From NCBI RefSeq assembly GCF_009389715.1, contig NW_024068211.1, positions 98,501 to 162,500 of the forward strand: a stretch of DNA of 64,000 nucleotides, in the 5' to 3' direction. The stretch comes from Phoenix dactylifera (lineage: Eukaryota > Streptophyta > Magnoliopsida > Arecales > Arecaceae). The notes under the pieces were generated by a model that worked only from the letters and a program-made list of their open reading frames with translations, did not search any database and had not been told where the DNA came from. Of this stretch, positions 1 to 20,481 are shown piece by piece. The position numbers were made by a program, and so were the translations under genes. How positions within the stretch are numbered: position 1 is the first letter of the stretch; each line of letters begins with the position of its first letter.

Positions 1-2826
1 TCCAGCTGCAATGTACTCAGCCTCAGCTGTGGACAAGGCAACTGAATTTTGTTTCTTGCTAAACCAAGAAACCAAATTGGCACCCAAGAATTGACATGTG
101 CCACTTGTGCTTTTTCTGTCGAGTTTGCACCCAGCAAAATCAGCATCGGAATAAGCAATTAAATTTATGTCAGATTGTTTAGAATACCATAAGCCTACAT
201 TAGATGTCCCTACTAGATATCTAAAAATTCTCTTAACAGCTTGCAAGTGTGATTCCTTAGGACATGCTTGGTATCTAGCACACATACAAACACTGAATAA
301 TATATCTGGTCTACTAGCAGTAAGGTAAAGTAGAGAGCCTATCATACCTCTGTACAATTTGCAGTCTATACTTTTACCTTTTTCATCTTTGTCAAGCTTG
401 CAACTTGAGCCCATGGGTGTGCTGATTTCCTTTGCATCCTTCATCTTGAATTTTTCCAACATTTCCTTGATGTATTTGGACTGACTGATGAAGATGCCCT
501 CCTCTGATTGTTTTATTTGTAGCCCAAGGAAGAAGTTGAGCTCACCCATCATGCTCATTTCAAATTCTCCCTGCATAAGCTTGGCAAACTCTTGACAAAG
601 ACTGTCATTAGTAGCACCAAAAATTATATCATCCACATAAATTTGTACAAGCAATAAGTCATTTCCTTTTCTTTTAATAAAGAGGGTTTTGTCTACATTT
701 CTTCTCTTAAATTTGTTTTCAATTAGGAAATTACTTAATCTTTCATACCATGCCCTAGGGGCTTGCTTAAGGCCATACAATGCTTTATGCAATTTATACA
801 CATAATCTGGATGTAAGTGATTTTCAAAACCTGGAGGTTGTCCTACATAAACTTCCTCCATTATATAACCATTTAAAAATGCACTTTTTACATCCATTTG
901 ATAGAGTTTAAAATCCATGAAGCATGCATATGCTAAAAGTAGTCTAATAGCCTCTAACCTAGCAACAGGAGCAAAAGTTTCATCAAAATCTATTCCTTCC
1001 TCCTGATTATATCCTTTGGCCACTAGCCTAGCTTTATTTCTTATTACTATTCCATCTTCATCTAGTTTATTTCTATACACCCACTTGGTGCCTATGATTG
1101 AAACATTAGGGGGTATTTTCATTAGAGTCCAAACTTCATTTCTTTCGAATTGGTTTAATTCCTCTTGCATAGCATTCATCCAATTATCATCTTTTTCAGC
1201 TTCTTCTAGTGATTTAGGCTCTATTTGTGAAACGAAAGCAAGATAATTACTAGTGTTTCTTAAAGAGGATCTAGTTCTTATACCTTGTGAAGGATCACCA
1301 AGGATTAGATCCTTTGGATGACCATGTGCATACCTCCATTCGTTGGGAAGATCTTGATTTCTTGATGGAGGTTGATCTTCTTCATTTCGCTGATTTGTAT
1401 CTTCTTTGATCTCATCCTCATGTTGTTTGTCTTGAGTGGAGAGTTCCTTCATTTGGTCTTCAAGTATACCTACATCACCATCTTCTTCTTTTCTAGAAGA
1501 ATCTCCATTAGTTTCATCAAAAACAACATGAATGGATTCTTCAACAACGAGAGTTCTCTTGTTGAAGACCCTGTATGCTCTACTAGATGAGGAATAACCT
1601 AAGAAGATCCCCTCATCTGATTTAGCACTAAATTTACTTAGATTGTCCTTTCCATTGTTCAAAATAAAGCATCGACAACCGAAAACATGAAAATAACTTA
1701 TATTAGGTTTCTTACTTTTTATCAACTCATAAGGTGTTTTCTTTAAGATGGATCTAACTAAAGCACGATTTAAGATATAACATGAAGTATTTATTGCTTC
1801 AGCCCAAAAATACTTTGGTAGATCCGATTCGCACAACATGGTACGAGCCATATCTGCTAGTGTGCGATTCTTTCTTTCTACCACCCCATTTTGTTGGGGT
1901 GTCCTAGGTGCCGAGAAGTTGTGATTGATACCATTTTCTTCACAAAATTTTTCAAAATACTGATTTTCAAACTCGGTACCATGATCACTCCTAATTGCTT
2001 TTAGTTTAAGATTGAGTTCATTTGAAACCCTATTATGAAACTTGATAAAAGCGGAAAAGGACTCATCTTTGTGTGCAAGAAATGAAACCCATGTAAAACG
2101 TGAAAAATCATCAACAATTACAAGACCAAATTTCTTACCCCCTAGACTAGCAGTTCTAGTGGGTCCAAACAAATCCATGTGAATTAGTTCTAAGATTTTT
2201 GATGTTGAGACTATGTTCTTAGACTTGAAAGAACTTCTTGTTTGTTTCCCTAATTGACATGCAGCACAAATTTTATTCTTTTCAAAGTCTATTTTTGGTA
2301 GTCCTTTGACTAGATCCTTTGTAATTAATTTTGAGATTAAATCCATGCTAGCATGCCCTAACCTACGATGCCATAACCAACTAGTCTCATTGACTTTGGG
2401 ATTCATGGCTACAAGACATTGGCCATCCTTCATGGTGAGATCATCAAGATCTACCATGTAAACATTTCCATGCCTATGTCCTGTGAGTATGATCTCATTA
2501 TCAATTGGACTACTAATTATGCATAGTGATGATTCAAATGATACTTTAAATCTCTTGTCACAAAATTGACTTATACTTAATAAATTATGTTTTAGTCCAT
2601 TGACTAACAATACATTATCAATAAATGAGGAGGGTGATATGGAGATTTTGCCAACACCAATGATTTGACCTTTAGCATTGTCTCCGAATGTGACTACTCC
2701 TCCTTCTTTTGATTCCAAGGTGACGAAGAGACTCTTGTCACCGGTCATATGCCTTGAGCAACCACTATCAAGATACCACATTCTCTTTTTGTTTCCGGCT
2801 GCAAGGCATACCTGCAAAATGATCAT
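1..2826 (-). CDS. pol: Sirevirus pol polyprotein (PR-INT-RT-RNase H), runs off left edge
   Basis: This polyprotein would process Gag, integrate the element, and reverse transcribe it. The frame starts [11 protein letters not shown] and is open without a stop to base 1 (942 codons seen). In order: aspartic protease motif DSG at residues 20-22; integrase zinc-binding HRRLGH (about 152) and CAACQLGK (about 188); integrase core motifs HMDLFGP (about 217), SDHGTEF (about 281) and [13 protein letters not shown] (about 306); RT motifs KWVYR (about 580), [10 protein letters not shown] (about 642) and YVDD (about 728); RNase H motifs DADFAG (about 892) and [10 protein letters not shown] at the edge. 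The start ATG at 2826-2824 overlaps the gag stop as ATGA. The same frame is closed by TAA only four codons upstream, so pol sits in a different frame from gag. It looks intact, and no nonsense codon was seen. Confidence in the family is high; whether the element is active is unknown. Confidence 0.92.
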
Positions 2827-4619
2827 GTGAAGCTCTTAGGTACCCAAGTTTTCTTGGGTCCTTCGTGGTTAGTGTGGTTGGTTCCCTTAGGCACCCATAC
2901 TTTAGTTATGTTTTTAGCTTTCACAAATGTACTCTTGTTAGTTTGGATCTTTCTTTGAATACAAGAGTAGGCTTTATGTCCATTCTTCCCACAATGAAAG
3001 CATGTAGGTTTTTCAGTTTTTACATTTTTTGCTTTTACAAAGAAATTCTTTAGGTATTTTTGTTGTGTGTTAGTTTTATATCCTAATCCGGCTTTATTGA
3101 AAACAGCTCTTTGATTTGAAAGAATAAGATTTAATTTTTCAGAGCTTTGTGTGAATTTTTCAACAATTGGTTTGTACTTATGTACCTCATTCTTAAGATT
3201 CAAATTTTCTTTAACTAGTTCTTCCTTATCTTTTTTAAGGGATTCAACATTTTGTGCAAGTGAGGTATTATTATCGAGTAGGAATTTTACTTTTAGATTT
3301 AATTCCTTAATTAGTATTTTTGCCTTTTCATTTTCAATGCTAAGTTTTGAATTTTTGATTTCTAGGTTAGTAGTGTTAATATTTTTAACGCTCTCCTTTT
3401 CAATTAATAGGTTTTCAAAATCTTCCTTTAGTTTTTGATTGGAGGCTTTTAACTCTTTATTCTTTGCTCCTAACATACTACAATCACCCATAAGTTCTTG
3501 AAAAGCTTCATATAATTCTTCTAAAGTAAAATTTATAGTTGGGTTTTGACATACCTCGTCGTCTTCGAACGCCATGAAGCACAAATTGGCGGTCTCTTCC
3601 TTCTCTTCCTCGGAGGATGATGTGTCACTATCATCCCATGTTGCCTTCAATGCCTTCTTCTTCTCCTTTCCAAAATACTTCTTTTGTTGAGGGCATTTGG
3701 AACGAACGTGTCCCGGTCTCTTGCAATCATAGCATATGATTGGATCTCTTTCTTTTTCCTTTTCTTTTTCCCAATCATTTCTCTCTCCAAATTTCTTTCT
3801 TGGGAAAGGTTTCTTTCTTCTCATGAATTTCTTAAACTTCCTTACTATCAAACCCAAGTCCTCATCTTGGCTTTCTTCTTCACTCTCACTACTCTCTTCT
3901 TCGCACACACTTGAGGTAGCCTTGAGTGCGATTGTCCTTTTCTTCGGCAACTCTTCTTCATGTTGCTTCATTGTGAGCTCATGCGTCATCAATGAGCCCA
4001 GTAGTTGTTCTAATCCCAAAGTGTTGAGGTCTTTGGCTTCTACGATCGCCGTGACCTTTGCTTCCCATGCTTTCGGCAAAGACCTGAGAATTTTACTCAC
4101 AAGTTCTGGGTTAGTATAAGATTTACCCAAACTCTTTAGACCATTAATTATATCGGTAAAGCGAGTAAACATGCATGTGATGGTTTCATTGGGTTCCATC
4201 TTAAACAACTCATACTTGTGAACTAGAATGTTCACTTTAGACTCTTTGACTTGATTTGTACCCTCGTGGGTAACTTCAAGCCTATCCCATATTTCCTTAG
4301 CGGAAGTACATGTGGAGACTCTATTGAACTCATTTACATCTAGAGAACAAAATAATGAGTTCATGGCTCTAGAATTAAGTTGAGCCATCCTATCATCATT
4401 CTCATCCCAATCCTCCTCAGGTTTGGGAACTCGAATGCCATTAACCATGTGTGATGGTTCTTGTGGTCCCTTGACTATAACCCTCCACAAGGCATAGTCT
4501 TGTGCTTGAATGAAGATTCTCATTCTAGTCTTCCAATAGGTATAATTTGTCTCATTGAAGAGTGGAGGTCTATTGGTTGCTTGCCCCTCGGCAGGAACAT
4601 TGTTAAAGGGTGTTGCCAT
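2823..4619 (-). CDS. gag: Sirevirus Gag, 598 aa
   Basis: Gag is the structural nucleocapsid polyprotein that packages element RNA in cytoplasmic virus-like particles. The N-terminal third has the copia Gag look ([19 protein letters not shown] near residue 20, then a UBN2-like helical domain to about residue 230). A basic stretch precedes the first CCHC knuckle, [14 protein letters not shown] (about 297), which is followed by an acidic serine-rich segment. A long Lys/Glu/Asn/Leu-rich region (about 380-500) should form a coiled coil, and a second CCHC knuckle [14 protein letters not shown] lies near 540. The length and two-knuckle plan fit sireviruses. The ATG at 4619 is 52 bases after the primer binding site and is the first ATG of the leader. 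The stop TGA overlaps the pol ATG by four bases. Confidence 0.92.
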
Positions 4620-9849: not shown

Positions 9850-10071
9850 CTTCAAGGTCAGATAAAGGCATAGCATAATTCAAGAAATTGGCACAACCTA
9901 CATTTGAGGGCTCCACTTAATCCCATCAAGTCTCTAAAGTGGCTCAAGGAAATGGAGAAGGCATTTTACCTGCATGGAGTGCACGGATCAGCAAAAGGTC
10001 TGCTTCGCTACTTATTAGTTGCAAAGAATGACATGCCTATCATTTGGGATACTTTCTATCAAGAATTCATG
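9850..10071 (+). pseudogene. Ty3-gypsy Gag relic, 5' piece
   Basis: The frame reads PIKSLKWLKEMEKAF and later DTFYQEFMD, the pattern of the retrotransposon Gag domain of chromovirus-type gypsy elements. The segment from about 9475 to 9850 looks like its decayed N-terminus, with stops in all frames. The frame is cut at 10076 by the Tat-like element and resumes at 16840, where GATAT is duplicated. Removing one duplication restores EFMDMYFSES across the join. It is a pseudogene, with multiple upstream stops and no downstream pol. Confidence 0.7.
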
Positions 10072-10076
10072 GATAT
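10072..10076. repeat. Target-site duplication GATAT (left)
   Basis: GATAT flanks the Tat-like element at 10072-10076 and again at 16840-16844, an exact 5-bp duplication that fixes both outer ends. Confidence 0.95.
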
Positions 10077-10949
10077 TGTTGCTGGAAATTGGACCCGGGG
10101 GCTGCCGCGAACCGAGAGGGGAGGAGCTCTGCTGCCGGGGTGGCGGTACATCGACGGGCGGCGTCCTCCTGGAGAGTCCTGCAAGAAAGCCGGTGGCCGG
10201 ACTTTCCGGCGCCGGCCCTCCGAAGCTTAAGTCAGAGGGGGCTAATATGGGGGGGTAAAGGAGGAGAATGTTTTTGTGCTTTTTTTTCCGTCCCTCCGTC
10301 CCTCCCCCAGGTTTCCTTTTTATAGAGGGATATTATGTTACCTGGGAGGTGACGGAAATTTGTCTCCTTTTGTAATAATTGGGCACGATCATGCTCATTA
10401 ATGGCGTTGTGGAGAATAAGGCCGGATCAGACTGGAGTCAGGGAGCTGTCATGGTTGATCGGACCCGTTGGGGGTGGTTGAACCGCCGGTCGTGGCGGGC
10501 CTGGGGTTCGTAGATGGTAAATGCATTAATTGCTGAATGAACCGGTGGTCAGGGTGAACCATACGCTTTGACGGTTCAGTGATCCGGAGATCGTCTTGAG
10601 CTGTGTTCATTTAATGACTGAGTGCATCGGAGGCCTGAGGGGGTCTTATGCATTAATGATAGGTCGTGCCGAGTTCCTGTGGAGATCTCGTGCCTTGATG
10701 ACTTAGGGATGGTGGCAGATTGTAGTGGAGTCATGTACTTAGTCGTCAGATCTTTTGGAGGATTAGGCGGGATTGGGTATTCGGCTAAGGCATGGGCCTG
10801 GCACAGGTGCCGAGCCGAGCAGGTCGCCTAGCGGAGTGTCCTGTGGCGGGGTTGCTTCTGGTCGGCGCTTTCTAGTCGAGCGCCTCTCTGGTCGGCGCTT
10901 TCTAGTCGAGCGCCTCTAAAATGACTCGATTTGGGTTTTTCCCCCAACA
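10077..10949 (-). repeat. Tat-like element left LTR (3' LTR in element sense), 873 bp
   Basis: It starts TGTTGCTGG and ends CCCCCAACA. It matches the right LTR along its whole length, with roughly 2% differences by eye, nearly all transitions. It has two copies of a 30-bp unit where the right LTR has three. Small open frames inside it are shared by both LTRs and are not genes. Confidence 0.93.
10857..10916. repeat. 30-bp tandem repeat, two copies, in left LTR
   Basis: The unit starts TCTGGTCGGCGCT and contains the self-complementary-like pair GGTCGGCGC / GTCGAGCGCC. The right LTR carries three copies (16717-16806), which accounts for most of the LTR length difference. Confidence 0.9.
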
Positions 10950-10964
10950 CTACCCCCGACTTCC
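10950..10964 (-). other. Polypurine tract of the Tat-like element
   Basis: On the minus strand, AAGTCGGGGGTAG abuts the LTR start TGTTGGGGG. This is the expected plus-strand primer position and confirms the orientation. Confidence 0.75.
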
Positions 10965-11245
10965 GAGTTCCAGCTGGCTACCAGCTTGAGCGCGGGAAGT
11001 AGCTTTAGTTGGGTCATTATGGATTCCGAAATTTTTAAATTATTGCGCGTTTCAAATTATTGGGTGCTTCGAGACGCCTTAATAGGCGGCGTCTCTTCTT
11101 TCCCAAAAATGTCTCATTATTGGGACGCTCTCTCCGAAGTGTCCTCGCGTCGTGGGCTCATGATGGGGCCGTATGATTTGATGGGGCGCTTCTGTGTTCG
11201 AAGCGTCAGCCCGAAATAAATGTGGCGTTCCGTTTTTTGGGTCGA

Positions 11246-11251
11246 CACGTG
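11246..11251 (+). promoter_or_regulatory. G-box CACGTG upstream of the antisense gene
   Basis: The palindrome GACACGTGTC holds a perfect G-box about 60 bases upstream of the TATA box at 11310. G-boxes bind plant bZIP and bHLH factors; a role here is inference. Confidence 0.45.
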
Positions 11252-11309
11252 TCGTGATCCGGACGGAGAGCAGCGTTTTTTCTCGCTGATCTGGGCCGTT
11301 GGAAGGATT

Positions 11310-11317
11310 TATATAAA
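11310..11317 (+). promoter_or_regulatory. TATA box of the antisense gene
   Basis: TATATAAAT sits about 140 bases upstream of the ATG at 11457, with a pyrimidine-rich leader between them. The spacing suits a plant RNA polymerase II promoter reading opposite to the retrotransposon. Confidence 0.6.
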
Positions 11318-11456
11318 TCCTCACCTGGCTTCCTCCTATTTTCTTACTGTCTTCTTCCTTCAGCTTTTCTCAGTCCGAAGTTCCTTATCCCCGGCGTCTC
11401 GCAGGTCCCTTTCCCCCTTCTTTTTCTTTTTCTTCCAGAACCCCTTTTTCTTTTTG

Positions 11457-13668
11457 ATGGGTTCCGGTCCGAATGAAGTCGAGTCCACCATGAGTGCACT
11501 GGAGGTGGAAATGACCGAGGAATGGTTTTTTTCTCTACAAGGGTTCCGGTTGGAGCCCGCCAGGCGGGGGGATCGGGTAACCGACCCTCCGGTAGGCCGG
11601 ATTGGGGTGTATTTGGAATCACTTTGGGCTGGCCTGCGGTTTCCTCTTCACGGCTTCGTGAATGAGTTACTGTCGGTATACCAATTGGTTCCGGCGCAAC
11701 TTGCTCCGAACGCCTGGAGGACAGTGGTCGGTTTTCTGTCGCTGTGTTTACTGCACGGGATTCCGACCTCTATTAACGTCTTCCGGCGACTTTTTGTGCT
11801 GAAATCGAATCCGGAAGACGGAGAGTGGCTCTACATCGCCCTTCGGGCGGGTCGGCCACTTTTTCAGGGTGCTCCTTCGTCCATTCATGACTGGAAGAAG
11901 AAGTTCTTCTTCCTAGGTTCCGAACGGACATGGGGATTTGACCCTAGGTAGGGGCCGACCCAGCTCAGGTCCGTCAATAAAGCCCCCAAGCTTTCTCCAC
12001 GTGAGCAGGGGATCACCGACACTATCCGCAGCCTCGGGGACGGGATCTTACTGAGCGGCCTCATAAGTAAGGACGCTCTAGTGAACGTTGGCCTGAGCTC
12101 GGCGCATCCCCATGGTAAGAGTAACAGTAGGGTGTCTTCTTCATTTTGTTGTAGTTCCAAGTTTTAACCCTGCTCGTCCATGCAGATATCGCAAAGATGG
12201 TGACCAAGAGCGAGGTCCTATACGCCCGGTTTCAAAAGAGGGCGGCCGAGCTCTCAGGAGAACCAACCGAGCCGAGGAAGAAGGCGAAGACCTCGGCGAA
12301 GACCTCGGCGACCACAACAGTTGAGGTACGCGCTCCTCGCCCCGTGCGCTCTGAAGCTGGTCGGGGAGAGGGCGTGGGCTCTGGCGGAGCTACGATGGCA
12401 CTCCCATGCCCGGTGCCGATTTCGCAAATCCCTGGTCGGCAGGAAGCTCCAAATTCCGACCAGGGAGGGAGGACTTCGGCGGATTTGGCACTTGCACGCC
12501 CCGCCTCTACTTTGCGGCAGTCAGGTCGGCCGCCTATCCGACCCCAACTCCCCAGTCCCGAGCCGGGGAATAGTCAAGAAGCCACGTGGTCGGCTGCACC
12601 CAGGCCGGCTGAGGCCGGCCTTGCGGGTTCGTCGGGTCCCCGGGAGCGGGTGCCTTACGCTCCTGGATGGGCCGTTTTCGAGGGCGACTCGGCCCTCGAT
12701 AACCCACAAGTGGCGCGCGAAGTTCTTCGGGTCGCGCTGCTCCCGGCTGACCAGGCCAAAATCCGGTCCCTGAACTACGACGCGTTCATGGACTCCGCCA
12801 TTTGCTCTTCCATCCGAGTAAGTCGACCTTCATTTCCGTGTAAGTTGTGTTTCGGATTAAACCTATTTCTTACGTCTCCCTCTTGCAGCGCCTCCACGAA
12901 ACCGAAACAATGATACACATAATTCAAGACTATCGGGACCGAGCCCGAAGGCATCAGAGGGGGCGTGAGGAGGCCGAAGCGAAGTTCCTCGTGTCCGAGG
13001 CCGAACAGAAAGTGCTTCAAGCGAAGTTAGAGGCGGCCGAGGACGAGGTTCGGGCTCTAGTCGCCGAACTTAAAGAGGAGAAGGGCGTGCAAGCTTTGGC
13101 CAGATCTGAAGTGCGCGCCGCTGAGGCTCGTCGGTCGGAGGCCGAGTCGTCGCTCGCTATACGCGAGCAGGAGGTGGGGGAGGCTCACCTAAAGGTCCAA
13201 GAGCTCGAAGTCCGTCTGCTCGACGCGCAATCTCTGCTCGTCGACCGTGAACGGGAAATAAAAAATTTGGAGCGAAAGGCCACCTACCACGAGGCTCGGG
13301 AGAAGGAGGCTCGGGAGCAGGCCCAAGATGCTGTCAAACTCTTCCGTGACTCGGAAGAGTTTCGCGACTTAATGGAAGAGGAGGGCGTCAACGGGCTCAT
13401 CCAGGGTTTCAAGGACTTCCGCAACCAGCTGCGGCGACTTCTTCCAGACTTTGACCTTAGCCTGCTTCAACCAGGAGCAGGGGTCGAAGATTCAGGGGTG
13501 GAGGCAGAAACTCCGCCTGGCGGGGCCGACCAGGAAGGTCCAGCAGAAGTGGGCGAGAGTGCTCTTGAGGTCGCCGAGGCGGCTCCCGAAGCTGCTGGGG
13601 CCACCGGAGAAGAGGCCTCGACCGCAGAGGAGCCAACTGCTCCTGAAGTCGCCGAGCCCGAGCCTTAG
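11457..13668 (+). CDS. Antisense gene of Tat-like element, three exons, Transposase_28-like domain plus coiled coil, one stop inside
   Basis: I read exons 11457-12114, 12186-12817 and 12889-13668 (690 codons with the stop). Both introns are 71 bases, begin GTAAG and end GCAG, and the three reading frames join exactly. Exon 1 (residues 20-160) resembles Pfam Transposase_28, 'putative gypsy type transposon' (LRFPLHGFVNELLSVY, then LAPNAWRTVVGFL). The middle is basic and Pro/Ala-rich, with lysine clusters near residue 235. Exon 3 is a long Glu/Ala/Arg heptad coiled coil (about 440-590) followed by a conserved-looking block GLIQGFKDFRNQLRRLLPDF and an acidic Ala/Glu tail. Function is unknown; such proteins occur as antisense ORFs in Tat elements. 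The in-frame TAG at 11949-11951, probably from a tryptophan codon (R-W-GPT), breaks this copy unless only the N-terminal 164 residues are made. Start choice: ATG after the TATA box and leader. Confidence 0.75.
12115..12185 (+). other. Intron 1 of the antisense gene, 71 bp
   Basis: The donor is ATG|GTAAGAG and the acceptor CCATGCAG|AT. The interior is T-rich. Removal joins codon GAT in phase 1 and changes the frame from that of exon 1 to that of exon 2, which is open for 210 codons. Confidence 0.75.
12818..12888 (+). other. Intron 2 of the antisense gene, 71 bp
   Basis: The donor is CGA|GTAAGTC and the acceptor CTCTTGCAG|CGC, with a T-rich interior. Removal joins in phase 0 and moves into the long coiled-coil frame. 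Without splicing, exon 2 runs into a frame with no family-like sequence. Confidence 0.75.
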
Positions 13669-14320
13669 TGTGGTTTTTTCTTCTTTTTTGTGTAGGCCGG
13701 AGTGGCCTCTACTTGTTAAGGTCAAGTCCGAGCTTTGTACTTAGCCTACGGGCCTTTTTTGAAATGAATATACGTATTCATTATAACTTGTGACTTGTGC
13801 TTTGGTTTGATTTTCGGTTAACTTATTTCTTTCGTTTGGATCCGCTTTTAGGCTCCTAGGAATTAGGCTCTACGGCTCCAACCTCGTCCGCCACATAGCT
13901 AGTGCTCGGCACAGCTGAACTTGGGTCCTAAGACCAGTAATTATAGCGATGCTTATGTCTAGGACGTGCTTGGGCTCGGGAGGGGGTCTTTTCGAGCTCG
14001 GCTCAGAATTCGACCGAGCCCTAGGACTGGGTCACTAGACTTGAAATTCTTTAGTGAACTTTGAGCCCGAACCTCGAGTTGCCGAGGCGGGTGGTCGAAT
14101 TAATTAAGCAAGAATGGAAATAAATGAAATAATGTAAATATTAATTAAACGGGTACCTGGTACCGTGAGCGCTCTTATGCCGAGGCTAAAAACTTCGCCT
14201 GGCGGCTGAAGACGCTCTTCTGCTCGGGGTCCGTTCTTTGGGGACGCCGATAAGAGGAATCCGGTTGTCAATCACGGACTTTTCGTTGATCACGAACAGG
14301 AGGTTGGGTCGAGCTCTGTG
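13669..14320 (+). other. 3' flank of the antisense gene, no gene
   Basis: After the TAG at 13666-13668 there is a T-rich stretch and an AATGAATAT-like possible poly(A) signal near 13763. The remainder is noncoding element sequence rich in CCGAGCTCGG-like short palindromes. Confidence 0.45.
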
Positions 14321-15120
14321 ATCGATGGAGAACGAGCCGAGCTCGTTGGCCGGTAGAGAACACATCCCGCTGTATCGGGGCATCCCGACCGCGGTCGGGG
14401 TAGGAGAACGAGCCGAGCTCGTTGGCCGATGGAGAACGAGCCGAGCTCGTTGGTCGGTGGAGAACACATCCCGCTGTATCGGGGCATCCCGACCGCGGTC
14501 GGGGTAGGAGAACGAGCCGAGCTCGTTGGCCGATGGAGAACGAGCCGAGCTCGTTGGACGATGGAGAATGAGCCGAGCTCGTTGGTCGGTGGAGAACACA
14601 TCCCGCTGTATCGGGGCATAGAATGAGCCGAGCTCGTTGGTCGGTGGAGAACACATCCCGCTGTATCGGGGCATCCCGACCGCGGTCGGGGTAGGAGAAC
14701 AAGCCGAGCTCGTTGGCCGATGGAGAACGAGCCGAGCTCGTTGGTCGGTGGAGAACACATCCCGACGTATCGGGGCATCCCGACCGCGGTTGGGGTAGGA
14801 GAACGAGCCGAGCTCGTTGGCCGATGGAGAACGAGCCAAGCTCGTTGGTCGGTGGAGAACACATCCCGCTGTATCGGGGCATCCCGACCGCGGTCGGGGT
14901 AGGAGAACGAGCCGAGCTCGTTGGCCGATGGAGAACAAACCGAGCTCGTTGGTCGGTGGAGAACACATCCCGCTGTATCGGGGCATCCCGACCGTGGTCG
15001 GGGTAGGAGAACGAGCCAAGCTCATTGGCCGATGGAGAACGAGCCGAGCTCGTTGGTCGGTGGAGAACACATCCCGCTGTATCGGGGCATCCCGACCGCG
15101 GTCGGGGTAGGAGAACGAGC
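14321..15120. repeat. 104-bp tandem repeat array inside the Tat-like element, about 7.5 units
   Basis: The block GACCGCGGTCGGGG recurs at 14387, 14491, 14678, 14782, 14886, 14990 and 15094: spacing 104 except one of 187, which holds an extra partial unit. Each unit contains two near-copies of a CGAGCCGAGCTCGTTGG segment and the perfect palindrome CCGACCGCGGTCGG. Long open frames on both strands (for example 14186-15283 minus) are a by-product of a repeat with few stops and are not genes. Tandem arrays near the 3' end are known from Tat/Ogre-type elements. Confidence 0.95.
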
Positions 15121-15224
15121 TGGGCACCATGAGACAACATAGGAGAATTGGTGAGTTCGAGCAAGCGCATAAGCCGTTCATAAAATGAAATTTATGGTTA
15201 GATAGTGGGGGACCCCTCGGGATT

Positions 15225-15925
15225 CTATTGGTAGTACACGCGGAGATTTTCAGAACTCCAGCTTCGTGGAATGGGAGTCCCATCTAGAAACTCTAGCTTG
15301 TAAGTTCTGGGCCGACGGATGCACGTGACTCGGTAAGGTCCTTCCCAGTTTGGAGCCAGTTTCCCCTGCTCGGTTGGTCGGGAGGCCTCGGCTCTTCTGA
15401 GGACAAGGTCCCCTGCTTTGAAGGATTTGATTTTGACCCTGGCGTTGTAGTATTGAGCTGTCTTTTGCTGGTACCTCGCCATGCGAACTCGGGCGGCCTC
15501 CCTTGTTTCCTCGATCAGGTCGAGGTTGTTCCTGAGCTGTGAGGAGTTGGAGCTGGCATCATGATGCTCTACCCTCGGAGATGGGAGTCCGATCTCCAAC
15601 GGGATGACAGCTTCCGTTCCGTATGTTAGGTTGAAGGGAGTCTCGCCGGTGGGGACACGAAATGTAGTCCGGTAAGCCCACAGGACATTGTATAGGTCTT
15701 CGACCCATTGTCCTTTGGATTTGTCGAGCCTGGCTTTGAGCCCCTGCAAAATAGTACGATTTGTTACCTCGGTTTCTCCATTCATCTGAGGGTGCGCGAC
15801 CGAGGTGAAGCGGTGGTCGATGCCAAGCACGGAGCAGAATCCTCTGAAATGGAGGTTGTCGAACTGGCGGCCGTTGTCGGATATGAGGATGCGGGGGAGC
15901 CCGAATCTGCAGATTATTGACTTCC
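15225..15925 (-). pseudogene. Tat-like integrase, C-terminal half only
   Basis: The minus frame begins just after the primer-site-like sequence with GLPRILISDNGRQF, the second catalytic Asp region of a gypsy integrase. It continues with HPQMNGETEVTNRTIL (containing the third catalytic residue E), WAYRTTFRVPTGETPF, and a GPYRV-containing C-terminal domain, ending VYYQ and stop at 15225. The zinc-binding domain, the first catalytic Asp and all of gag, PR, RT and RNase H are absent. This deletion fused the leader directly to mid-integrase. It cannot be functional. Family call is firm from the GETEVTNR and GTEAVIP motifs typical of Tat-clade pol. Confidence 0.85.
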
Positions 15926-15935
15926 TCTAGCGCCA
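15921..15935 (-). other. Primer-binding-site-like sequence of the Tat-like element
   Basis: TGGCGCTAGAGGAAG on the minus strand starts two bases from the LTR end CAACA. Position and TGG start fit a primer site. I cannot assign the tRNA. Confidence 0.55.
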
Positions 15936-15937
15936 AC

Positions 15938-16839
15938 TGTTGCTGAAAATTGGACCCGGGGGCTGCCGCGAACCGAGAGGGGAGGAGCTCCGCTGCCGGG
16001 GTGGCGGTACGTCGACGGGCGGCGTCCTCCTGGAGAGTCCTGCAAGAAAGCCGGTGGCCGGGCTTTCCGGCGCCGGCCCTCCGAAGCTTAAGTCAGAGGG
16101 GGCTAATATGGGGGGGTAAAGGAGGAGAATGCTTTTGTGCTTTTTTTTCCGTCCCTCCGTCCCTCCCCAGGTTCCCTTTTTATAGAGGGATATTATGTTA
16201 CCTGGGAGGTGACGGGAATTTGTCTCCTTTTGTAATAATTGGGCACGATCATGCTCATTAATGGCGTTGTGGAGAATAAGGCCGGATCAGACTGGAGTCA
16301 GGGAGCTGTCATGGTTGATCAGACCCGTTGGGGGTGGTTGAACCGCCGGCCGTGGCGGGCCTGGGGTTCGTAGATGGTAAGTGCATTAATTGCTGAGTGA
16401 ACCGGTGGTCAGGGTGAACCATACGCTTTGACGGTTCAGTGATCCGGAGATCGTCTTAAGCTGTGTTCATTTAATGACTGAGTGCATCGGAGGCCTGAGG
16501 GGGTCTTATGCATTAATAATAGGTCGTGCCGAGTTCCTGTGGAGATCTCGTGCCTTGATGACTTAGGGATGGTGGCAGATTGTAGTGGAGTCATGTACTT
16601 AGTCGTCAGATCTTTTGGAGGATTAGGCGGGATTGGGTATTCGGCTAAGGCATGGGCCTGGCACAGGTGCCGAGCCGAGCAGGTCGCCTAGCGGAGTGTC
16701 CTGTGGCGGGGTTGCTTCTGGTCGGTGCTCTCTAGTCGAGCGCCTCTCTGGTCGGCGCTCTCTAGTCGAGCGCCTCTCTGGTCGGCGCTCTCTAGTCGAG
16801 CGCCTCTAAAATGACTCGATTTGGGTTTTCCCCCCAACA
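15938..16839 (-). repeat. Tat-like element right LTR (5' LTR in element sense), 902 bp
   Basis: Same ends as the left copy (TGTTGCTG and CCCCCAACA). It has three copies of the 30-bp unit at 16717-16746, 16747-16776 and 16777-16806. It is followed at once by the duplicated GATAT. Confidence 0.93.
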
Positions 16840-17178
16840 GATATGTATTTTTCTGAGAGTCCCAGATTTGAGATAGAGAGTGAATTTACCAGGTTGACTC
16901 AAGGGACCATGATGGTGACTCAGTATGAGGCCAAGTTGACTGAGCTCTCCCATTTCGCTCTAGACCTGATGGCAACTTACGACATCAAGGCCAGAAGATT
17001 TGAAAAATGGTTGAGGCCTAGGATTTGTGCGGGAGTAAGACCGATGCGGTTGGACTCTTATCAGGAGGTAGTCAATATAGCCACCAGAGGCCTAGGACCT
17101 AGAAGCAAATGTGCGCGCTCACCCTACAGAATGTTGTTAAATTTATTACTTGATTTTCATGCTGTGCGTGTGGAATGA
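16840..17178 (+). pseudogene. Ty3-gypsy Gag relic, 3' piece
   Basis: This continues the frame cut at 10071. It reads LTQGTMMVTQYEAKLTELS, then ARRFEKWLRPRI and SYQEVV, matching the second half of the gypsy Gag domain. It fades out near 17100, and no CCHC knuckle or pol follows. GATAT at 16840-16844 is the right-hand duplication. Confidence 0.75.
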
Positions 17179-19592: not shown

Positions 19593-20270
19593 TCAGTAAT
19601 GGGCCACATGGCACTCTGTCCTCCCAAACCCGGCTGCTCCCGGAGTCTCCTTCGTCACCAACGGGACCCTCAACTTATTGCACCTTACCCTCAGCCGGCG
19701 GCGCCTCGAGACCACCGACCCAAACTTGTACCTTATTTGTCCGATTAACCAAACGTCCACGTTGAAGAACCCCATCTTCTCTTCGTTCCTGAATTCATCC
19801 ATGCCGGAGCTCTCGAGCCCGAAGACCGACGTCCCCTCCATGACTGGGTGCAACATGGTAGTGTTCTTGTGGCCCTGGTAAAAGGTAGGAAGTGTCATGA
19901 AACCGAACCGCTCGCCGTTGTAGTAGGTCTCGCCATGGAGATCGTCATAATAGATGCCAACCCTCCTGTAGGAGTTTCGGAGACTGATGTCGGCGGAGAG
20001 GTTGTAGGAGAGGGAGGTAAGGTTTGTGCCAGTGAGGTTGAAGCGGGTGAGGGTGGCGGTCTCGACTGCGGCTTTGATCTTGTGGGGTCGAAATATAAGC
20101 CAGAGGACGAGGATAGCAATGCCGAGGAAGATGCATAAGGCGATTAAGGTTTTGTAGGTGGTGCTGAGGAGGCAGCAGCGGCAGCTTTGGGGCTTTTGGT
20201 GGTAGGGTTGGGGAGGAATTGACAGGCCGTGGTATGATCCGGCGGGATTGGACTTAGGTGAATGACTCAT
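19593..20270 (-). CDS. NDR1/HIN1-like protein (LEA_2 family), 225 aa
   Basis: NHL proteins are small membrane-anchored LEA_2 proteins, many linked to pathogen response or senescence and placed at the plasma membrane. The sequence shows a Pro/His-rich cytoplasmic N-terminus, a CRCC cluster near residue 34, one hydrophobic segment (about 42-60, IALCIFLGIAILVLWLIF) ended by the family motif RPHK, and a beta-rich LEA_2 domain with NLSADISLRNSYRRVGIYYD and YNGERFG. C-terminal features are WLIGQIRYKFG and VRCNKLRVPL. It is intronless, as is usual. I chose the ATG at 20270 (MSHSPKSN). The frame opens 69 codons earlier, but that part is not conserved-looking and would precede the usual N-terminus. 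This is the only intact host gene I see. A close NHL3/NHL10-type relative is likely, but the subgroup is not fixed. Confidence 0.87.
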   Translation of the reverse strand: MSHSPKSNPAGSYHGLSIPPQPYHQKPQSCRCCLLSTTYKTLIALCIFLGIAILVLWLIFRPHKIKAAVETATLTRFNLTGTNLTSLSYNLSADISLRNSYRRVGIYYDDLHGETYYNGERFGFMTLPTFYQGHKNTTMLHPVMEGTSVFGLESSGMDEFRNEEKMGFFNVDVWLIGQIRYKFGSVVSRRRRLRVRCNKLRVPLVTKETPGAAGFGRTECHVAHY

Positions 20271-20481
20271 GGTATAGTTGATGAGCTGAAGCAAAGGGAA
20301 GAAATGAGAGGAAGAGGGGGGAGGAGAGTAAGTCTTTAACTTCTTTTTAGAGGAAGTGAGTGAGAAATAAAAGGAAGGTAATGAGTGTTGGAGATGGCAA
20401 GGTGATGACGAGAGAGATATCTTTATCAATCTAATGTTGGCACGTCTCTTTAATTCAAAAGACTTGATGTGGCCCATATGA

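Follow-up and report, generated by a model that had tools for sequence, protein, structure and literature searches.

Within a 64,000-nucleotide stretch of the date palm (Phoenix dactylifera) genome, called the window throughout, a retrotransposon of the Retand lineage carries a three-exon gene on the strand opposite to pol. The copy in the window is dead; the gene family it belongs to is very probably a genuine spliced antisense coding gene. The gene class is already known, namely as the antisense TRP28 gene of Retand-lineage elements, comparable to gene23 of maize Grande. What looks new, judging from sequence comparison, is that one conserved spliced gene stands where surveys of open reading frames count separate ORFs.

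The element occupies positions 10077-16839 on the minus strand and is bounded by a 5-bp duplication, as recognized by flank comparison. Its layout is complete in outline, with both LTRs, the duplication, an integrase remnant, tandem repeats and the antisense gene, the latter being located between the integrase remnant and the 3' LTR:

10072-10076 (left copy) and 16840-16844 (right copy), no strand: target site duplication GATAT, from flank comparison
10077-10949, minus strand: 3' LTR of the element, from the LTR pair and flank comparison
14194-15171, no strand: tandem repeats of about 104 bp, separating the pol remnant from the antisense gene, from repeat comparison
15225-15925, minus strand: C-terminal remnant of integrase, truncated by a deletion, from a sub-threshold Pfam match and a sibling copy
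15938-16839, minus strand: 5' LTR of the element, from the LTR pair and flank comparison

The LTR pair shows 16 transitions and no transversions over 872 aligned sites; since the resulting K80 distance is only 0.0187, the insertion is fairly recent. That all 16 substitutions are transitions fits the expectation for decay of methylated cytosines. The element seemingly inserted into the gag gene of another retrotransposon (flanks 9904-10076 and 16843-17175): the right flank yields a weak Retrotrans_gag match (E 3.6e-4, 21.1 bits, below the cut-off of 24.1), and the left flank resembles gag on visual inspection only and has no match in Pfam. Elsewhere in the window, the minus strand carries a long Copia-type gag ORF with a zinc knuckle (2823-4619; PF14223, E 6.8e-34) and an ORF with a LEA_2 domain, probably a host gene (19593-20477; PF03168, E 1.6e-6).

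The integrase-like ORF lies on the minus strand and the gene on the plus strand, confirming the orientation opposite to pol given in the preliminary description. In the window, the remnant matches Pfam SH3_Tf2-1 at E 0.0033 (17.9 bits, under the cut-off of 30); we take it for the C-terminus of integrase because in a sibling copy the zinc-finger and core of integrase precede this stretch. One stretch of this sibling (L053) was read and retains RT (PF00078, E 4.5e-31), RNase H, aRH and integrase zinc-finger domains, in the order RT_RNaseH 3-67, RVT_3 116-234 and Integrase_H2C2 329-378. The aRH (RVT_3), which sits between RNase H and integrase in the sibling and is deleted from the window copy, is described in this position as a feature of both Ogre and Retand (PMC6317226) and hence does not tell the two apart. 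The Retand lineage is indicated by the TRP28 domain (PF04195), found at 53 bits against a cut-off of 26.2. On these domain matches we assign the element to the Retand lineage of Ty3/gypsy (Tat clade), where it belongs to a large family in date palm.

The deletion junction lies at 15925/15926. When the genome was searched with the integrase remnant, 40 of 1680 candidates were scored; the window alone matches from position 1, and the other 39 matches start at position 13 or later. As far as scored, the 12 bases adjoining the 5' LTR are fused to the integrase part only in the window. A shared non-autonomous subfamily with an identical deletion was considered and rejected, as the junction occurs in the window alone among these 40. 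It had been taken as a clue that the gene survived while gag and RT were lost. This clue does not hold: among the matches scored, the deletion is seen in the window copy alone, L053 keeps RT and the other domains listed above, and the antisense gene lies outside the deletion, so that its survival here is no sign of selection.

For the gene itself, the preliminary coordinates of exons and introns, the GT..AG ends, the 71-base introns and the in-frame joining proved exact:

11246-11251, plus strand: CACGTG (G-box), in 5 of 29 rows
11310-11316, plus strand: TATATAA, the gene's TATA box, kept in all 29 rows counted
11457-12114, plus strand: exon 1, with the TRP28 domain at residues 53-116 (11613-11804)
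11949-11951, plus strand: in-frame stop codon in exon 1, window copy
12115-12185, plus strand: intron 1, phase 1, GT..AG, 71 bases
12186-12817, plus strand: exon 2, linker, 44% Pro/Ser/Gly/Ala
12278-12289, plus strand: KKAK, a nuclear-localisation-signal-like K-[KR]-x-[KR] motif just after junction 1
12818-12888, plus strand: intron 2, phase 0, GT..AG, 71 bases
12889-13668, plus strand: exon 3, coiled coil and conserved C-terminal block; stop at 13666-13668 in the window copy

An open product of 689 residues had been described as well. It is absent from the window copy, which is unable to make it because of the exon 1 stop at 11949-11951 in the spliced frame; the ORF beginning at 11220 terminates at the same stop. 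None of the 29 other aligned copies shares this stop; at its position, one copy (L030) carries another stop codon. The window copy is a fairly recent, deleted and stopped relic.

The 773-Mb genome was searched with positions 11220-13700. Of 1527 candidate places 40 were scored and 30 fetched, i.e., the window and 29 further copies; these rows are sequences rather than independent events, and some are near-identical (L022/L024, L011/L012, L019/L020). The splice dinucleotides are intact throughout nearly all rows (donor 1 GT 29/30, acceptor 1 AG 29/30, donor 2 GT 30/30, acceptor 2 AG 30/30), whereas inside the introns only 9 of 49 dinucleotides (intron 1) and 8 of 46 (intron 2) are shared by 28 or more of the 29 rows used. 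Introns 1 and 2 measure 69-75 and 69-79 bases, respectively, in the close copies. The spliced phase is kept in 24 of 28 copies for exon 1 and likewise in 24 of 28 for exon 2, although intron lengths differ by 1, 2, 3 and 8 bases; the copy L048 is without promoter and the first part of exon 1 and is out of the phase, TATA and G-box counts. That both introns have exactly 71 bases is true of the window and five of the 29 other aligned copies, and lengths vary in the remaining ones. Since intron lengths vary among close copies and diverged families alike, with intron 1 reaching about 100-120 bases in the latter, the equal lengths are incidental.

Seven copies, picked by hand from the 29 to span subfamilies, were compared by the NG86 method (21 pairs, pooled) and gave dN/dS values of 0.17 for exon 1, 0.26 for exon 2 and 0.19 for exon 3. 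The remaining two plus-strand frames gave 1.21-1.77, such that on the plus strand values below 1 occur only in the spliced frame. The mirrored minus-strand frames gave 0.21, 0.33 and 0.29 with more stops, the usual echo of a coding frame. Compared codons containing a stop number 6-17 in the true frames versus 71-322 in the other five frames per exon. At least one exon is stopped in 21 of the 30 rows, and nine rows are stop-free in all exons up to position 13660. In exon 3, 24 one-base insertions were counted across 28 copies when compared with the window; one, near the 3' end, shifts the stop. TAG at 13666-13668 occurs in 8 of 29 rows, and the final codons drift. Splice sites, phase, dN/dS and stop counts, taken in combination, argue for purifying selection on a protein read through two introns. 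The coding frame is conserved among the genomic copies, the splice sites and spliced frame are conserved beyond chance, and the earlier proposal of a spliced antisense coding gene with its own TATA box in a Tat-clade element gains support from splice sites, dN/dS and TATA conservation.

These values also bear on the question whether the antisense transcript, and not a protein, is what matters, by pairing with genomic RNA and feeding small-RNA silencing or tuning copy number. Such a role has been suggested in print for antisense ORFs of this kind (PMC7264820), and conservation of the TATA box alone would be compatible with it. Yet dN/dS of 0.17-0.26, found on the plus strand in the spliced frame only, and the phase held across the introns need a selected protein, and we regard an RNA role in place of a protein as improbable. 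RNA and protein roles together could coexist.

A further alternative, in keeping with ORF surveys, reads the apparent introns as spacers between separately translated antisense ORFs. Exons 2 and 3 are each contained in an ORF with its own start codon, and the Retand survey counts antisense ORFs singly (PMC11963269). Ten Phoenix gene models, all of them automatic predictions, were read at the protein level: four begin at the exon 2 Met (P0002-P0005), as separate translation would have it; three span junction 1, namely P0006, which matches the genome at 100% and was mapped to DNA, and P0021 and P0039 (by protein reading); and three use junction 2 exactly (P0001, P0002 and P0003). Seven of the ten do not span junction 1, seven are without junction 2 as predicted, and several join otherwise. 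However, the splice dinucleotides are far better kept than the intron interiors, both joins hold phase, and the exon borders recur in diverged families, which leaves separate translation highly improbable.

The diverged families were reached by a TRP28 profile search of the genome, in which 150 of 3465 candidates were scored and the best 20 loci fetched. Their exon 1 is mostly 57-64% identical to that of the window (79% in L002); where pieces of exons 2 and 3 could be matched, identity is 26-57%. The exon 1 match reaches residue 219 in 18 of the 20 loci, ending at 216 in L014 and at 155 in L015. With L015 omitted, and with acceptor 1, donor 2 and acceptor 2 placeable in 17, 16 and 13 of the 20 loci, respectively, the dinucleotides were found at donor 1 (GT) in 17/19, acceptor 1 (AG) in 16/17, donor 2 (GT) in 15/16 and acceptor 2 (AG) in 13/13. 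Losses concern donor 1 in L002 and L009, and acceptor 1 together with donor 2 in L005. The last of these, having lost two splice dinucleotides, is a natural variant suited to testing splicing in RNA data, and so is another locus: L055 (C883:3800-5000), with a shortened intron 1 and both splice ends retained. Because both intron positions are common to the diverged loci, the gene structure is older than the split of the families.

This age bears on a third alternative, i.e., capture of a host gene by the element (transduction) with its host introns retained. Introns within retroelement genes are unusual, and a TRP28 protein model exists in Ipomoea (P0008), both in line with such an origin. The same intron positions accompany the TRP28 domain in diverged families of the date palm genome, though, and 97% of the Retand clusters with recent activity, from monocots and eudicots, are reported to contain antisense TRP28 ORFs (PMC11963269). 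Given this wide distribution of TRP28 ORFs and introns, any capture was ancient, and we hold capture to be the least probable of the three alternatives.

Upstream of exon 1, the TATA box lies 147 bases before the ATG. As previously noted, it lies on the strand of the gene; it is kept in all 29 close rows, and 17 of 19 diverged loci have a TATAWA in the 330 nt preceding the ATG, versus 1.04 expected from shuffles. This search was widened after a first look, in which 260 nt gave 9/19 versus 0.6 expected, and L001, whose N-terminus is unmatched, was omitted from the diverged count. The G-box fared differently: CACGTG is present in the window copy as claimed but is not conserved and, with 5 of 29 rows, was rejected as a regulatory element.

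Concerning the protein, Pfam places TRP28 (PF04195) at residues 53-116 of exon 1 with E 4e-14 (the stop being entered as X), which bears out the Transposase_28-like domain noticed before. For exon 1, structure prediction gives a domain of mixed helices and strands at moderate confidence (pLDDT 68.5, pTM 0.73). Motifs of the K-[KR]-x-[KR] type are able to act as nuclear signals; of 30 close rows 29 have the motif following junction 1, as do 16 of 17 diverged loci, with L045 (frame-shifted) and L005 being without it as read. For exon 3 of a sibling copy, long helices are predicted at 2-67 and 72-165 (126 of the 256 residues have a pLDDT of 90 or above), consistent with the long coiled coil proposed for the product; in exon 3 of the window copy, the heptad contrast reaches p <0.05 only in windows spanning residues 43-168. 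The C-terminal block of exon 3 is very conserved. Against NCBIfam, exon 3 gives only a weak SMC match (E 3.8e-4, 18.3 bits, far below the cut-off of 567), in keeping with the Smc-like ORFs described on the antisense strand of Retand elements. Searches of solved structures returned nothing convincing (best E 0.15 in one search, no match in a second).

Beyond date palm, the wheat protein P0020 (isoform X2) is clearly homologous over a stretch about as long as exon 1 (221 columns in hhalign, E 1.5e-28). The full-length plan was not accepted for this protein, its C-terminal block being no more than suggestive (probability 2.6 and E 0.018 in hhalign). With a narrow profile, the C-terminus of P0020 went unreported while a shuffle reached 5.3 bits; against a broader second profile it obtained 3.8 bits, a score that 6 of 3000 shuffles attained.

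How two introns persist in a retroelement was approached through joined-exon patterns, as intronless retrocopies would give direct proof of splicing. Among the close subfamilies, which the degenerate patterns cover, there are none: the junction 1 pattern (up to two mismatches) hit 0 genome places, as did its reversed control, and the junction 2 pattern (up to one mismatch) hit 0 places against 1 for its reversed control. The exon 1-intron 1 boundary pattern hit 1587 places versus 637 for the reversed control; boundary and joined-exon patterns differ in length and degeneracy, so that this is a rough control. A contiguous-looking match on C883 was rejected as a spliced copy, since its intron 1 is shortened with donor and acceptor present. 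With many boundary places and no joined-exon places, the antisense message is seemingly not reverse transcribed, and introns on the non-genomic strand seem not to be removed during the life cycle of the element.

If, as we prefer to read it, the gene is antisense, coding and spliced, a promoter in the interval from the 3' LTR to the ATG would give rise to an antisense RNA, from which the host spliceosome would remove two short introns. The outcome would be a single protein composed of the TRP28 domain, a nuclear-signal-like motif, a flexible linker and a coiled coil. The genomic RNA would represent the other strand, on which the splice signals do not read as introns, and the spliced antisense RNA would be without the LTR ends needed for copying; for these two reasons the introns could persist through retrotransposition. 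This model agrees with the fact that no intronless copy was found among close relatives.

The preliminary description spoke of a gene of unknown role. As to role this stands, but the class has been described, in Grande gene23 and in the Retand TRP28 ORFs (PMC7264820, PMC11963269). Maize GENE23 is reported to be a nuclear protein driven by its own promoter, and, like the window gene, gene23 (aORF-3R) runs against gag-pol in the region from pol to the 3' LTR (PMC7264820). Compared by description only, gene23 has a promoter upstream and a nuclear product, and the window gene a TATA box and an NLS-like motif. The Retand survey (PMC11963269, Vicient 2025) gives 104 antisense ORFs (57 of them with TRP28), 11 Smc domains and 63 clusters. 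Its TRP28 ORFs share with the window gene PF04195, the antisense orientation, the POL-3'LTR region and tandem repeats, and its Smc-like antisense ORFs lie in the POL-3'LTR region, too. In contrast to the survey, where ORFs are counted as uninterrupted, the window family appears as one spliced gene. The main texts of PMC11963269 and PMC7264820 never use the word 'intron', and the latter urges a search for antisense and spliced transcripts; by title or abstract opening, we found no report of introns in such antisense genes.

HBZ of HTLV-1 offers a functional parallel, with no homology claimed: its message undergoes splicing, and its product contains a bZIP coiled coil. It is likewise an antisense gene with a nuclear product (PMC11963269). 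The HTLV antisense promoter is in the 3' LTR (PMC7264820), whereas the TATA box of the window gene is in the internal region. Functional introns as such are known from the plant LTR elements Ogre and EVADE; there, they reside in the sense RNA and shape gag-pol products (PMC6317226, PMC12786077), while those of the window gene are antisense and would go unseen by the genomic RNA.

By analogy, the most likely course is that the protein forms oligomers, goes into the nucleus and serves there as an accessory regulator acting on DNA or transcription of its own element, a role to which we give about even credence. More tentatively, and with somewhat less than even confidence, the antisense ORFs of Retand elements in general (TRP28, Smc-like and others) may be exons of one ancient spliced gene making one nuclear coiled-coil protein, where strand asymmetry keeps the introns through reverse transcription and ties expression to nuclear splicing of a message that is never copied.

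If the gene is spliced, surveys based on ORFs cut one protein into pieces, and the full-length protein becomes testable and localisable. The two junctions would serve as an unambiguous RNA-seq mark of accessory-gene expression. Introns on the uncopied strand would, if true, constitute a clean natural case of intron survival through retrotransposition.
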